NCBI GenBank assembly: GCA_020849945.1
Contig: JADZFK010000161.1
Coordinates: 1-64,000, forward strand
Source: Pirellulales bacterium
GTDB taxonomy: Bacteria; Planctomycetota; Planctomycetia; Pirellulales; Lacipirellulaceae
Direction of reading: 5' to 3'
Length of the DNA stretch: 64,000 nt
Shown here one piece after another: positions 167-63,005 of the stretch. Position numbers and translations under genes: made by a program. Position 1 is the stretch's first letter, and each line of letters starts with the position of its first letter. The notes under the pieces are model-generated. The model was not told the origin of the DNA. It was given only the letters and a program-made list of their open reading frames with translations, and searched no databases.

Positions 167-320
167 TTCTCGCCACGGAGCACACCGAGGTCACGGAGAA
201 CAAGCCAAGAGATCGTTTGAAGCAAGGTCAACGGCCCGTAGGTACGAGACAGGGTGTTTCCACCGTTCATGGTGGTAGGGGTACTTGCTACTGGTTTTCT
301 CCCTGGCTCCGTGGTTTTGA
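167..320. repeat. CCAC-type short inverted-repeat element (copy a)
   Basis: Ends cgccacggagcacaccgaggtcacggag / ctccctggctccgtgg; internal sequence is near-identical, in reverse complement, to 62860-63005. Confidence 0.75.
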
Positions 321-18816: not shown

Positions 18817-20694
18817 ATGGCAGGCCGATGGTTGCGAACTTGGGCGGCAAGCTGCGGAATCGCAGTGTTCCTGATATCGAATTACTGCCATGCCCAGGTG
18901 GCTGCCACCACGCGGGCCGAGCCCGCGCATGGCGAAGCCCCGCCCGCCCAGCAAGAACGGATCGACCAGTTGATCCGCGAGCTTGGGAGTCCGCGTTATG
19001 GTGCCCGGCGAGCGGCCGCTGCCGAACTGCGGCAGATCGGCGCGGAGGCTTTCGATTCTCTGTATGCGGCAACCGAAGATGTCGATCCCGAAATTTCCGC
19101 CAGCGCAAATTATCTGTTGCGGCAAATCAATGTTCGCTGGGTACAGCCCGACGATCCGCCGACGGTCCGTTCGTTCTTGCGAAGCTATGGGCAAGAACCG
19201 GAGTCAACCCGGCAAGCGGTTGTGGAAGAAATAGCGAAGTTGCCGCGAGGCGAAGGGCAGGTGGCTCTCTGCCGGATCGCGCGCTTCGACCGTTCCCCCC
19301 TTATCTCCCGAACGGCGGCTCTCGGCATCCTGCGGCCCAGGGGAATCGGCAAGACGCCAATCGTGCCAGATACTGCCGCCCTTGAAACGCAACTTGGGCA
19401 CAGCACACGGGTGGCCACCCGCTGGATTCGCCAGTACCTTGCCCAGCTTGAAGACCCGGCAGCTTCGGTTGCGAGATGGAAGCAGCTCATCGAAGAAGAG
19501 GAGGCCCGAATCGAGAAGAGCGGCGAAACCTCGTCCGATATTCTCTTGTATCTGGAATGGAACCTCGCGGACATCCATCGGCAACTGCGCGATGATCGGG
19601 CCACCGCGGCCACGCTCGATCGCATGATGGGTTTATCAGAATCCGAAGCCGATCAATCTGTTATCGCCGTGCTAGACTGGCTGACCGAATACCAATTGTG
19701 GGGTGTCCTGGATTCATTTCTTGGCAAACATCAATCGCGGTTTGAACATCGCAAACGGGTGCTTTACCACACGGCACTTGCCCGCGAGAAGCAGGGGCAG
19801 ACCAAGTTGGCCGACGAACTGGCGACGCGGGCAGCCCAGGCGGCTCCCAGTCTTTCGCACGAAGCGATTAGCGCCGCCATCGACCTCGAGCGAAAGAACA
19901 AGCACGAATGGGCCATCCGCGAGTATCGCGGCAGCATCGAGCGGCTTGCCTCCGCACCCATCAACGAGGATGTGATCATCGCCCGCGTCCAGCTAGCTCG
20001 TCTGTTGCACGACGACGACCGCGACGCTGAGGCGTCCGAAGCGATCGAACCACTCGTCCGCGCAGTACTGGGAAAAGGCAATACGGCGAACCTCTACAAC
20101 AACATCCAGGAACAATACGAGCGTGTTGGGATTGATATTCCCAGCCCCGAGGTGTTGGCGGGGCGATATCATTTCTATCGCGCTTGCCAGTACCAGCGTG
20201 ATCAAGATTACCGTCGCGCACAAGATGAATACGAATTGGCCGTCAAGTTCGATTCGTCCGATGCCGATCTGCTCATCGCCATGTTTCACTTCCCGAAAGC
20301 GGACGATGCCTGGCGAAGCAAGGTGCGGATTCATCTCACCCGATTGGTGCAGCAGCTCCAGCAGCAGATCGACGACAACCCGGCCGACCCCACCCCTTAC
20401 AACCAATGGGCCTGGTTGGTGAGCAATACCGAGGGCGACTTCCAAAAAGCGATCCGCTATTCGCGCCGATCGCTCGAACTCAACGATGTCGGCGAGACCG
20501 GCGAAGCCAGTTATCTCGATACGCTAGCGCGCTGCTACTATGCCGTCGGCGATTACGAACAGGCCGTTAAGTACGAGCGGCAAGCGATTGAAAAGCTGGA
20601 CTACATGCGCGTTATGCACCGCCAACTTGCAATCTTCGAAAAAGCACTCGCCGAGAAGAAAGCGAAGGAGGGGCGAGGAGTGAGGAGTGAGTAG
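18817..20694 (+). CDS. Secreted HEAT/TPR-repeat protein
   Basis: Signal-like N-terminus; LIRELGSPRYGARRAAAAELRQIGAEAFDSLYAA; C-terminal TPR-like ...TYLDTLARCYYAVGDYEQAVKYERQAI. Confidence 0.7.
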   Translation: MAGRWLRTWAASCGIAVFLISNYCHAQVAATTRAEPAHGEAPPAQQERIDQLIRELGSPRYGARRAAAAELRQIGAEAFDSLYAATEDVDPEISASANYLLRQINVRWVQPDDPPTVRSFLRSYGQEPESTRQAVVEEIAKLPRGEGQVALCRIARFDRSPLISRTAALGILRPRGIGKTPIVPDTAALETQLGHSTRVATRWIRQYLAQLEDPAASVARWKQLIEEEEARIEKSGETSSDILLYLEWNLADIHRQLRDDRATAATLDRMMGLSESEADQSVIAVLDWLTEYQLWGVLDSFLGKHQSRFEHRKRVLYHTALAREKQGQTKLADELATRAAQAAPSLSHEAISAAIDLERKNKHEWAIREYRGSIERLASAPINEDVIIARVQLARLLHDDDRDAEASEAIEPLVRAVLGKGNTANLYNNIQEQYERVGIDIPSPEVLAGRYHFYRACQYQRDQDYRRAQDEYELAVKFDSSDADLLIAMFHFPKADDAWRSKVRIHLTRLVQQLQQQIDDNPADPTPYNQWAWLVSNTEGDFQKAIRYSRRSLELNDVGETGEASYLDTLARCYYAVGDYEQAVKYERQAIEKLDYMRVMHRQLAIFEKALAEKKAKEGRGVRSE

Positions 20695-20746
20695 TGAGGG
20701 GTGGCAGTGTTTTTGCTCCGTCTCGTGCGATTTCGCAATCCATCTT

Positions 20747-23375: not shown

Positions 23376-23438
23376 ATGAAATCGAATCTCTCGCACGCCA
23401 AGACCGTTCGCCACCGCCAAAAAGACTACAACGCTAAG

Positions 23439-23629
23439 TCAAACCACAAAGGCCACAAAGAACACGAAGGAAATAGAGCATCCATCGTGGCGGAAATACT
23501 GGGGTGCCCATGCGCGTTGCAATGAACAAGTTGGTTTATTGAAGTTGCGCACAATTGGTCCCGGCTGGTCGAACTCTGAATGCCCAAAATGCCGGCTTGA
23601 TTGGTGTTCTTCGTGCTCTTGGTGGTCAA
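23439..23629. repeat. CCAC-type short inverted-repeat element (copy b)
   Basis: tcaaaccacaaaggccacaaagaacacgaagg ... ttcttcgtgctcttggtggtcaa. Confidence 0.7.
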
Positions 23630-24072
23630 TCAACGTAGCGCTGTGGTACGAACCAAGTTCAACGGTCTCTACCAAAAGAGATAACTGAGGCGAGGGGCGT
23701 CATCGAGACGTTTCCTGCTCGGTTTGTTTGTGGAGCAATACACCTCCATCAACCAGACCCAAGGGGGGGGTAGCGACTAACCATTGATGGCCAATGTGTC
23801 ATGGCACCTGGGCATGCTTTCTTTCCGAGCAGCACCAGGGGATTACCACGCAGAAATGGCTCGTTTTTGTGAACCGGGGATCCTACTGGGGACCAGTTCC
23901 CTTGATCCGGGAACCTGGCTCGCCACCCGAGAAAAAAACTTGCCCAAAGGGGGCAAGAAAACTTGCAATCTGCTTAAGGCGTCAGTAGCATAATTCTAGA
24001 ACTTAACGCTGAAGAGTGCTTTGGCATTTCAGCTTCCATTCGCTGCTTGAAACGTCTTGGTGGAGGTGGCTA

Positions 24073-34229: not shown

Positions 34230-36077
34230 TTAGATTGAAAGTGCTTGACGTTCCGCAACGCGACGCCGGATCAGGTCGAGGTCGTCGTTGGGCGTGGCCG
34301 CGATAAGGCGGCGGGTGTACTCTTCGCGTGGGTTGTTGTAAATGTTTTCCGAGGGGCCGAATTCAACGATCTTGCCTTCGTTCATCACGGCCATCATGTC
34401 GGCCATGAACTTGACGACGCTCAGATCGTGGCTAATGAAAATGTACGTGAGGCCGCGCTTATCTTGCAGTTCTTTGAGCAAGTTGAGTACCTGCGCCTGC
34501 ACGCTCACATCGAGCGAGGAGACCGATTCATCGCAGATGATGAATTCAGGCCCGGCGGCCAGCGCGCGGGCAATGCACACGCGTTGCCGTTGCCCGCCGC
34601 TAAACTCGTGCGGATAGCGGCGGAGGAAATCGGGCTTCAGCCCGACTTCGCGGAGGAGCTCCGCGGCGCGGTCGCGGCGATCGGCGCGATTTGTGCCGAT
34701 CCGCTGAATCACCATCGGCTCGGTGACGGCCGTTTCGATCGTCATCCGCGGGTTCAGTGACCCGTAGGGGTCTTGAAAAACGATTTGCATCTTGCCGCGC
34801 ATCGCGCGGAGTTCGCTGCCCGAAAGCTGTGCCAGGTTGACGCCACGGTAGAGCACCTGACCGCCGGTGGGTTCGATGAGCCGGAGGATCGCGCGGCCGG
34901 TTGTGGTTTTTCCGCAGCCGCTTTCACCCACCAGCCCCAGCGTTTGGCCCGGGTACACGTTGAAACTGACGCCATCCACGGCCCGGATGTAATCGACGGT
35001 ACGGGCAAGGATGCCACGCTTGACGGGGAAGTGAACTTCCAGGTTGCTGACGGCAAGCACGGGTTGCGTGCCTTCCTCGATCGACTGGGTTTGTGGCGCG
35101 TGGTGGCCTTCTTCCCACGGGTGGCCAATTACGGCCAGTTCGCTCTTCGGGTGGAGCAATCGGCCGCGGCCTGTGGTTTCGAGGTGTTTCAAGCGTGCCG
35201 CATCCATCTTCTTTTCGATAACGCGAATCGAGCCCTCTTTCGTCACGGTTTCCATGAAGTCATCAACGGTGGGCAACCGCCGGTACTTGGTTTCCAGCCG
35301 TGGCCGGCAAGCCAGCAAACCTTTCGTGTACGGGTGCTTGGGGTTCGCAAAGATATCGAGCACCGGCGCGTATTCCACTTCTTCGCCGCGGTACATCACG
35401 AGCACATCGTCCGCAATTTCGGCAATGACGCCGAGGTCGTGCGTAATGAAGATAATGGCCATGCCGCGTGTATCGCGCAGCTTGCGGAGAATTTCGAGAA
35501 TCTGGGCCTGGATCGTGACATCGAGTGCGGTGGTCGGCTCATCGGCGATGAGCAGTTGCGGGTTGCAGGAAAGGGCCATCGCGATCATCACACGCTGTTT
35601 TTGGCCTCCCGACATTTGGTGTGGGTAGGAATCGATACGTTGCTCCGGCTTGGGGATGCCGACCTCGCGCATCAAGTCGATCGTCCGCTGCCGGGCCACG
35701 GTTCGGCTCACCCGCTGATGCAGGATGATGGCCTCCATGATCTGTGAGCCTACGGTGAAAACCGGGTTGAGCGAGGTCATCGGCTCCTGAAAAATCATGC
35801 TAATATCGCGGCCGCGGATCGATTGCATTTCGCGCTCCGGCAGGCCGACGAGGTCGCGCCCAAGGAACGAAATGCGTCCCGATTCAATCTTGGCGTTTGA
35901 CGTAAGCAGCTGCATGATCGAAAGCGAGGTAACACTTTTGCCGGAACCGCTTTCGCCCACGATACCCAGCGTGCGTCCCGGCTCAAGCCGAAACGTAAGC
36001 CCATCGACGGCGCGGACAACGCCCTCTTCGGTGTGAAAGAATGTGCGGAGACCATCAACTGCGAGGACAGTAGTCAT
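34230..36077 (-). CDS. Fused double-ATPase dipeptide/oligopeptide ABC transporter protein (DppD-DppF type)
   Basis: Two ABC cassettes: [33 protein letters not shown] and [39 protein letters not shown]. Confidence 0.93.
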
Positions 36078-36081
36078 ACAG

Positions 36082-36585
36082 TAGCCACAAAAAGGCACAA
36101 GAGACACAAATAAGAGGACTGTGGTTTTACATCTCGTCAGGTGGCGAGTTGTTTTGATCGAGTGTGAAGATGTACTTCTTGATGAACAGGCGAGGAGCAC
36201 CGAAGTTGATCAGCAAACCATGCTCCTTGCCGGATGAACGAAGGTAACCAATCATTTGAGCAATGTGATCGTTCACGATTGCGTTGCACGCCTTGATTTC
36301 GACGATCAAGCAGTTTCCTATCAGCAAGTCGACATAATATTCTCCAAGAATAGTACCATCTTCATCGTAAACGCTAAGTGGATGTCGGGTATGAACAATC
36401 AGACCAATCTTTGCAAGTCGATGTGCCAAGGCGCGTTCGTAGACTTTCTCCAAGTGCCCATGTCGAAGGTAATTGTGAATCGCAAAACTCGTCTCTCTCA
36501 CAATGTCGCATAGCTCATTGATAGTTTTTCACTTCTTTCCCATTGCCAGCCCACTTTTCGTGTTCTTTGTGCTTTTTTGTGGCTA
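36082..36585. mobile_element. Candidate 504-bp element: GxxExxY gene inside CCAC-type terminal inverted repeats (copy c)
   Basis: tagccacaaaaaggcacaagagacacaaa (left) and tttcgtgttctttgtgcttttttgtggcta (right) are imperfect inverted repeats surrounding ORF 36127-36501. Confidence 0.6.
36127..36501 (-). CDS. GxxExxY protein
   Basis: GHLEKVYERALAHRLAKIGLIVHTRHPLSVYDEDGTILGEYYVDLLIGNCLIVEIKACNAI...GYLRSSGKEHGLLINFG; GxxExxY motif present as GHLEKVY; PD-(D/E)xK-like D..EIKA. Confidence 0.9.
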   Translation of the reverse strand: MRETSFAIHNYLRHGHLEKVYERALAHRLAKIGLIVHTRHPLSVYDEDGTILGEYYVDLLIGNCLIVEIKACNAIVNDHIAQMIGYLRSSGKEHGLLINFGAPRLFIKKYIFTLDQNNSPPDEM

Positions 36586-37680
36586 TCACTTAGCTTGCCT
36601 CAACCTTGGGTCGGTCGCTTCTTGCAAACCTTCGCCGACGAGGTTGTAAGCCAGGACGGTGAAGAAGATGGCAAGGCCGGGGAAGAGCACAAGCCACCAC
36701 ATATTCAGGTTGCTGCGGCCAGCGTCGAGCAGCGCGCCCCAACTGGGGTTGGGGGGCGGGGTGCCGAAGCCAAGGAAGCTCAGGCCGCTTTCGAGCAGGA
36801 TCGCGGAAGCGATGCCGAACGTGATCGGCACAAGCACAGGCGCAAGCGAGTTGCGAAACACGTGGCGGTACATGACGCGATACCAAGGCACGCCGAGCGC
36901 GCGGGCAGCCATCACAAAATCGGCTTCCCGCAACCGAATGAATTCGCCGCGCATCAGGCGGGCGATGCCCGTCCAGCGGGTGAAGCCCAGCACGGCCATG
37001 AGATGCCAAATCGTGGGCCGTTCGAGGATCGCAATGAGAGCGAGAATGAGCACCAGGGGCGGTACGCACATCACAAGTTCGATGAGGCGGCTCAGCAGCA
37101 TATCAACCCAGGAGCCAAAGTAGCCGGCCAGTGAGCCGACAACGATCCCGATCACCGAGGCAATCCCCATCGACACGAAACCAACGAGCATGGCCGTGCG
37201 GGTGCCATGCACCATCTGGGCGAAGACATCGACGCCCGAACGGGTCGTGCCAAACCAGTTATACCGCGACGGGCTACCCGTATCGCGCGCCGGGTTGGCC
37301 GGCAGGTCGGGCCACTCATTCGCCCGCACGCGCCGGTACGGGTCTTGATATACGAGCGGCCAATACGCCCAACTCTCCGGGTCTTTCTTTGTCAAATTCG
37401 CCGGATAGACGCCGCGAAATCGATCGATGAGAAAGATCGGGTGCTCCCACTTACTGTAGAAGTATCCTAACGCGGGGAAGTACAGATTCCCCTTGTAAGA
37501 ACACACGAGCGGCTTGGTGCCGACGATGGCTGGCGAAAAGAGCGCAACGAGGCCCATGAATGCCACGTACACGAAGGCGGCCATCGCTAACTTGCGTCGG
37601 CGGAAACGACGCCATGTCTCCACCCAGAAGCCAGGCGACCGGGGCAAGGTGGTTTTAACGGGGGGGGAAGTAGTGGGCAT
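36586..37680 (-). CDS. Dipeptide-type ABC transporter permease (DppC-like)
   Basis: RLIELVMCVPPLVLILALIAI..GWTGIARLMRGEFIRLREADFVMAARALGVPWYRVMYRHVFRNSLAPVLV. Confidence 0.92.
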   Translation of the reverse strand: MPTTSPPVKTTLPRSPGFWVETWRRFRRRKLAMAAFVYVAFMGLVALFSPAIVGTKPLVCSYKGNLYFPALGYFYSKWEHPIFLIDRFRGVYPANLTKKDPESWAYWPLVYQDPYRRVRANEWPDLPANPARDTGSPSRYNWFGTTRSGVDVFAQMVHGTRTAMLVGFVSMGIASVIGIVVGSLAGYFGSWVDMLLSRLIELVMCVPPLVLILALIAILERPTIWHLMAVLGFTRWTGIARLMRGEFIRLREADFVMAARALGVPWYRVMYRHVFRNSLAPVLVPITFGIASAILLESGLSFLGFGTPPPNPSWGALLDAGRSNLNMWWLVLFPGLAIFFTVLAYNLVGEGLQEATDPRLRQAK

Positions 37681-56454: not shown

Positions 56455-56613
56455 TTCACCACGGAGACACCGAGACACGGAGAAAGAGCCGATTTGCCAT
56501 TGATCACTACCCATTTCTGAACCAACAACCAACAACCAACAACCAACAACCAACGACTAACGCCCAATTTGCTTCTCTGCTTTCTCCGTGTCTCCGTGCC
56601 TCCGTGGTGAAAT
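56455..56613. repeat. CCAC-type short inverted-repeat element (copy e)
   Basis: ttcaccacggagacaccgagacacggagaa ... ttctccgtgtctccgtgcctccgtggtgaa. Confidence 0.85.
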
Positions 56614-58586: not shown

Positions 58587-58749
58587 ATTTCACCACAGAG
58601 AGCACAGTGGACACGGAGAAGAAAGTATGATTGGTCATTGGAAATTGATAACTTGTCATTTAGCCGATTCTGAAATGACTCATTTTGATTGCTCAATTTG
58701 CTAGGAACGATTGCTTTCTCGGTGTCCTCTGTGCTCTCTGTGGTGAAAT
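58587..58749. repeat. CCAC-type short inverted-repeat element (copy f)
   Basis: atttcaccacagagagcacag ... ctgtgctctctgtggtgaaat. Confidence 0.85.
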
Positions 58750-62843: not shown

Positions 62844-63005
62844 CCACCAAAGGTTCGGCAAACACACGGAAAAAACCAGTAGCAAGTACCCCTACCACCA
62901 TGAGCGGCGGAAACACCCTGTCTCGTAGCGACGGGCGGTTGACCTTGCTTCAAACGATCTCTTGGCTTGTACTCCGTGACCTCTGTGTGCTCCGTGGTGA
63001 GAAAT
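62844..63005. repeat. CCAC-type short inverted-repeat element (copy g)
   Basis: accagtagcaagtacccctaccaccatga..caccctgtctcgta..gttgaccttgcttcaaacgatctcttggctt..ctccgtggtgagaa, reverse complement of 167-320. Confidence 0.8.

Follow-up and report, generated by a model that had tools for sequence, protein, structure and literature searches.

A GxxExxY gene between inverted arms at a planctomycete dppC–dppD junction: a likely gene-plus-satellite element resembling RAYT/REPIN systems

How a small gene enclosed by inverted repeats came to lie between two genes of a peptide-transporter operon, and what it might do there, is the question raised by a 504-bp unit at positions 36082-36585 of the window, the 64,000-nt stretch of Pirellulales DNA analysed here. 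The unit contains a GxxExxY (TIGR04256) frame enclosed by inverted arms, with dppC on one side and dppD on the other. It was found where the initial annotation had placed it, and its ends are nearly flush with the neighbouring genes, as that annotation had described. The features of the locus are as follows.

34230..36077, minus strand: downstream neighbour, a fused two-domain Dpp-type ABC ATPase; its ATG is 4 bp past the 3′ arm
36082..36110, plus strand: 3′ arm, the 5′ arm inverted; TAGCCACAAAAAGGCACAAGAGACACAAA
36127..36543, minus strand: GxxExxY frame (TIGR04256, PF13366); ATG at 36541-36543, stop at 36127-36129
36529..36531, minus strand: in-frame TGA; TGG (Trp) in four of five relatives' units at the dppC–dppD junction
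36557..36585, minus strand: 5′ arm (in the sense of the ORF); 7-bp units CACAAAA, CACAAAG and CACGAAA, with TAGC ahead
36586..37680, minus strand: upstream neighbour, an OppC/DppC-like permease; its stop codon directly adjoins the 5′ arm

The two arms are 29 nt each, are 83% complementary and are separated by 446 nt. Each of them is a tandem of three units, which was missed in the initial annotation, where a single repeat consensus mixed the two arms into one. The 19-mer TAGCCACAAAAARGCACAA, searched with up to 3 mismatches, has two sites in the window, both of them the arms, against 0.02 expected by chance. The enclosed frame matches the TIGR04256 profile with 106.5 bits, above the curated cut-off of 35, and the Pfam family PDDEXK_3 (PF13366) with 95.3 bits (cut-off 22), and it therefore belongs to the GxxExxY family. 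Within the unit, the profile searches gave family matches to this frame only and no transposase ORF.

The window copy does not have a complete translatable frame. Downstream of the ATG at 36541-36543 stands the in-frame TGA at 36529-36531, and the frame is open from this TGA to the stop. The copy is regarded as N-terminally interrupted because the TGA stands where most of the relatives' junction units, aligned by eye, have TGG (L044, L049, L053 and L055; L052 differs). The first in-frame start past the TGA is the GTG at 36499-36501. The encoded domain keeps its family membership, and the window copy may lack activity or have a shortened N-terminus; its sequence indicates that it is probably either decaying or starting at this GTG. 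The predicted active site (D, E-x-K, Q-x-x-x-Y) is intact.

The same residues are conserved across the GxxExxY family and, together with the predicted fold, correspond to the PD-(D/E)XK motif and fold. The model of the window protein, which starts past the TGA, has a pLDDT of 92. Its best fold match in the PDB is the Cas4 protein SSO0001 (4ic1), and lambda-type exonucleases and AddB/RecE are matched as well; a PDB sequence search with GxxExxY gave no match. GxxExxY is thus predicted to be a minimal Cas4/lambda-exonuclease-like PD-(D/E)XK nuclease. The predicted fold and active-site layout are common to the Cas4, lambda exonuclease and AddB-RecB group, whereas GxxExxY is far smaller (~115-130 aa) and stands alone between its own repeats. 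One paper names the family in passing, reporting an RT-adjacent gene as GxxExxY instead of cas4. No description of the function, arms, unit code or satellites of GxxExxY was found in the open-access literature searched, nor anything relevant on the repeats or on GxxExxY combined with inverted repeats.

The initial annotation regarded the 504-bp segment as a discrete mobile unit rather than a resident gene of the operon. To place it, the dppC–dppD junction was surveyed in 40 genomes, its own and 39 relatives, 32 of which have a dppC match. At this junction, four genera (G000, G004, G007, G019) have a GxxExxY unit that belongs to the window's clade, and deleted remnants of such a unit are found in two more (G009, G011). 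Two genomes (G014, G023) carry a different GxxExxY clade with CACGGAT arms at the same place, four (G002, G008, G017, G024) carry arm-only units, and in G001 the junction has arms of the type seen at S23 loci. In several other relatives there is only a short gap between dppC and dppD, the kind of junction lacking the unit that the initial annotation had proposed to look for. The gene is not conserved here without terminal repeats in all relatives, the pattern named there as contrary to mobility; the junction is either empty or variously filled. The annotated unit is therefore discrete and armed, as claimed, and a recent insertion is not supported, one clade occurring at one junction in four genera, and as remnants in two more. 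The arms of this clade at the junction are CACAAAA, CGCAAAA or CACGAAA depending on the genus, yet they match inside each unit. Among 262 GxxExxY proteins, a sample weighted to high scores and not exhaustive, the window's clade was seen at dppC–dppD only within the sample from this family, and one further member, L363, comes from a Trichlorobacter genome. Since the same clade sits at this junction across genera and was unseen elsewhere in the family sample, the window copy is, on comparison of these sequences, probably an old, vertically inherited resident. Other inverted repeats were also observed at the junction, GACAAGAGTCAAGAGCC in L057 (G001, same genus) and GGATGTTGGTGATAGGGGGGATC in L067 (G021).

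Persistence in place is not peculiar to this locus, as some other GxxExxY loci have also been conserved in position for long, which is unlike an active transposon. Orthologous copies have dN/dS values of 0.04-0.16 where dS is unsaturated, indicating purifying selection. The gene was found in 8 of 72,556 plasmid records, in none of 50,697 phage records and in 2 viral contigs; because of this near absence, plasmids and phages could not be used for pairs of empty and filled sites.

The arrangement of arm, ORF and arm recurs elsewhere in the genome, as the initial annotation had expected. In the window's own genome seven GxxExxY loci can be read on both flanks, and all seven have inverted arms, with a sequence particular to each locus; the eighth locus is interrupted by a contig end. 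Inverted arms above the 99th percentile of shuffles were found at 99 of 102 loci among relatives and, in a larger set, at 180 of 184 loci in the order and 67 of 78 in other phyla. The armed loci outside the order include members of Bacteroidota, Proteobacteria, Cyanobacteria, Chloroflexota, Acidobacteria and Methanosarcinales. One locus with flanks common across genera (L103, L109, L124, L137, L340) has two nearby GxxExxY units with separate arm codes.

Parsing of 57 elements showed that an arm consists of about three 7-bp units of the form CRCNRAK with spacers of 1-3 bp. Between the two arms of an element, agreement at unit positions 1 to 7 is.96,.93, 1.0,.71,.96,.97 and.97; between elements it is.84,.49, 1.0,.32,.48,.85 and.53. 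A part of this agreement is built into the parsing pattern, which leaves positions 2, 5 and 7 unconstrained; at these three, agreement is 0.93-0.97 between arms versus 0.48-0.53 between elements. The spacers agree at 0.63 between arms versus 0.37 between elements. The unit is nearly uniform over the six copies of an element and element-specific in sequence. Similar consistency was obtained with 154 elements; roughly one element in three falls outside the three-unit parse. The arms are thus no common terminal inverted repeat of the kind initially assumed, as their sequence changes from element to element. This is also why an exact search of the own genome with the window arm gave only two other close matches, and the notion that the window arm type is rare in the genome was dropped. 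The outer ends of the elements show a TTWAC-like consensus that fades 5-8 bp beyond the first unit. A TA or longer target duplication, for which the initial annotation had proposed to look, is not present across the 154 elements; a k=2 signal at offset 0 was read as a composition artefact.

The element-specific unit is linked to the protein that it encloses. Base 5 of the unit, which is A or G, covaries with protein columns 2 and 3, where the first helix starts; the mutual information excess is 0.51 and 0.43, and the next best column reaches 0.17. Threonine in column 2 goes with G at base 5 in 60 of 60 cases and alanine with A in 24 of 27, while in column 3 glutamate or glycine goes with G and lysine mostly with A. 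Disjoint closest pairs that differ at base 5 follow the predicted direction 36:0 for column 2 and 37:0 for column 3. The rule, derived from the same data on which it was tested, fits 130 of 140 cases overall and 106 of 111 in the main clade. Loci added later, some of them from genomes already in the set behind the rule, mostly fit it as well (for example L342, L347, L350, L351, L354, L356, L398 and L400; L360 does not). The window's clade breaks the rule, with C-D in columns 2-3 and A at base 5. On well-supported branches of the tree there are 6 independent pairs, of which about 4 are concordant and none is opposite, too few for significance. The arm does not overlap the codons of residues 2 and 3, because the 5′ arm is upstream of them. 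Base 2 is more weakly associated with columns 28, 55 and 85, and base 7, which changes 7 times on the tree, was set aside as evidence of coevolution, since it tracks nothing but the protein clade. The association between residues and bases is correlative. Because base 5 tracks two N-terminal residues, GxxExxY probably reads its own arms.

Arms also occur without the gene. The own genome has 234 arms (1 with the reversed control) versus 8 GxxExxY loci. In the order, none of seven gene-less genomes has an arm, and at least 2 arms are present in 32 of 33 gene-bearing genomes (Fisher p=4e-7, a value that treats relatives as independent samples, which they are not). In one gene-bearing genome, G013, control counts are also high, which makes its arm count uninformative. 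A closer analysis covered 0.815 Mb (20%) of the own genome, with 92 arms against 4 in the control. Among neighbouring arms less than 400 bp apart in this portion, 21 are inward-facing versus 5, and 19 of 22 arm pairs have the same code, where a fraction of 0.44 is expected; 77% of the arms lie outside long stop-free frames. The portion also contains about 30 copies of an arm-pair repeat of ~141-148 bp with roughly 80-97% identity, L418, L430 and L440 among them. The gene-free units in the window are the following.

173..320, plus strand: arm-only unit of the ~148-bp repeat family, CACGGAG-type arms
23425..23647, no strand: arm-only unit, CACNAAG-type inverted arms
56455..56611, no strand: arm-only unit of 157 bp, a tandem repeat between inverted CACGGAG-type arms of 32 bp
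58587..58749, no strand: arm-only unit of 163 bp, 34-bp inverted CACAGAG-type arms
62865..62997, minus strand: second copy of the 173..320 repeat, 93% identity over 133 bp

A similar dependence of dispersed arms on the gene is seen in Thioalkalivibrio. Between 11 and 156 arms occur in 7 of 9 gene-bearing genomes, one of which, G284, has a truncated gene, and more than 4 in 1 of 21 gene-less genomes (p=1.3e-4; the reversed-pattern controls gave 0). The two gene-bearing genomes without matches, G257 and G258, have CACGGAT arms that fall outside the search pattern. The single gene-less genome above 4 is the 2.1-Mb G272, with 43 arms and no GxxExxY gene detected. At a gene-bearing locus the site is empty in eight other species; a clean end could be defined at a single empty site and on one side, with extra repeats on the other. 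A match at the genome level between the code of the gene and that of the dispersed arms was considered and proved partial only: non-cognate A5-type arms make up 28 of 47 in G266 and 10 of 43 in G250, though the gene looks G5-type. Outer CACGAAG arms nesting inner CAC[AG]GAG arms were also observed, in G262:C3:1654-1900 and similar places, with many copies per genome.

We propose, and consider likely, that the window unit is one copy, probably in decay, of a chromosomal element that consists of a gene with satellites and works like RAYT/REPIN with an unrelated enzyme. Recognition of the arms by GxxExxY is very likely. That it drives the spread of arm pairs is a fairly likely reading of the sequences, and we lean towards the view that it cuts at the arms. 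With the beginning of its first helix, GxxExxY would bind the units in their DNA form, and it would nick or cut at or near the arms; this would allow copying or movement in trans both of its own element and of the gene-free arm pairs, and the host would finish the reaction. The genes are long-lived and mostly run in the direction of their operons, probably so as to be expressed by read-through. We infer movement of elements or arm pairs solely from comparative data.

The 'REPtrons' formed by RAYT (TnpA-REP), REP and REPIN sequences (PMC3116915, PMC8266576) are the closest system for comparison. In both cases repeats flank the protein gene, inverted doublets that lack it and measure roughly 70-150 bp lie outside genes in association with the gene, and enzyme and repeats co-evolve, which is seen here in base 5 and columns 2-3. 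In both the gene persists for long and hardly occurs on plasmids or in phages, the latter point examined here for GxxExxY only. The enzymes differ, RAYT being an HUH/Y1 transposase and GxxExxY a PF13366 PDDEXK_3 protein. The repeats differ too: REP sequences are palindromic and GTAG/CGTC-tagged, whereas a GxxExxY arm consists of three tandem non-palindromic 7-mers. In contrast to RAYT, planctomycete genomes carry several divergent GxxExxY copies each.

Among other explanations, regulation by a DNA-binding GxxExxY is unlikely. In this case the arms would be operators of an autoregulator, the dispersed arms would be regulon or chromosome-structuring sites, and spread would occur by other means. 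Putative inverted binding sites on both sides of the gene, the location of most arms outside long stop-free frames, and purifying selection with long conservation in place agree with it. It does not account for a nuclease active site conserved family-wide or for arms on both sides of the gene instead of upstream alone, and the ~148-bp repeat, with its conserved interior and its ~30 copies within the 20% portion analysed, resembles a spreading sequence. It is quite improbable that in the operon transcript the arms pair into an RNA stem enclosing the ORF, the unit being tolerated since RNase III-type processing excises it. The ORF runs with codirectional flanking genes 137:16 (flanking genes called by longest ORF only) and the arms lie within a few bases of genes, as such a stem would suggest; the co-orientation probably reflects selection for read-through expression, and insertion bias is possible. 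By what is generally known of RNA stems, arms conserved as one are expected to favour G-U pairs among their mismatches. The mismatches are 88 of G-U type and 88 of A-C type (26:34 at S23 loci), and for lack of a G-U excess the RNA stem is unsupported and was rejected. Moreover, arm agreement sits in the 7-bp units rather than in the spacers, and a stem needs neither tandem repetition of one unit nor its link to protein residues. In favour of a stem, S23-encoding intervening sequences have terminal repeats forming one (PMC4990558), and the S23 loci studied here are armed too.

Short non-autonomous copies with inverted ends are typical of IS/MITE families, and GxxExxY might be passenger cargo of an ordinary family moved by a conventional transposase that is encoded at another place. 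We consider this very unlikely: the units of ~400-630 bp hold little beyond GxxExxY, the arm unit co-varies with its residues, the arms are absent where GxxExxY is absent, and the elements were found without a DDE transposase, target duplication or fixed TIR sequence. Finally, template switching can homogenise tandem short units and their inverted copies, so that slippage and gene conversion might uphold the likeness of the arms without functional recognition. Such neutral processes predict neither the association of base 5 with residues 2-3 nor the gene-dependence of the dispersed arms, and the spacers are less homogenised than the units (0.63 versus 0.93-0.97), which leaves this explanation with hardly any probability.

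A second, unrelated protein appears to use the same design. Intervening sequences of 23S rRNA encode S23 proteins (four-helix bundle, TIGR02436) between terminal inverted repeats of ~28 bp, which pair into a stem in the RNA (PMC4990558). They share with GxxExxY the small ORF between inverted repeats; the fold is unrelated, the unit type is different, and these sequences act in rRNA. Full-length S23 loci of relatives and of the own genome (L069-L098, L168-L171) have inverted arms in 30 of 30 cases. These arms consist mostly of about four tandem 7-bp units with no spacers and are element-specific (AGTAGGC, GGCTGTC, TCAAGAG), which suggests that S23 has the same arm design. The broader view, that GxxExxY genes are cross-phylum, self-recognising nuclease elements with a readable protein-DNA code, in which residues at the beginning of helix 1 determine base 5 of the 7-bp unit, and that they spread non-autonomous arm pairs in trans, S23 having independently acquired the same tandem-unit architecture, seems to us evenly balanced.

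Judged by the open-access literature searched, what is new is that architecture, code and satellites occur together, the gene family itself being already annotated. Under the proposed reading, a widespread uncharacterised family gains a testable role, and a large class of dispersed repeats across phyla (CACAGAG, CACGGAG and similar) would be accounted for. The REPIN-like systems known to us are HUH-based only, and GxxExxY would give one built on a different enzyme. It would also offer a natural series of changes in protein-DNA specificity with a simple predicted recognition rule. No gene was identified at 20675-20716 of the window, where a tandem 7-bp repeat (GAGGAGT...) resembles the S23 arms.
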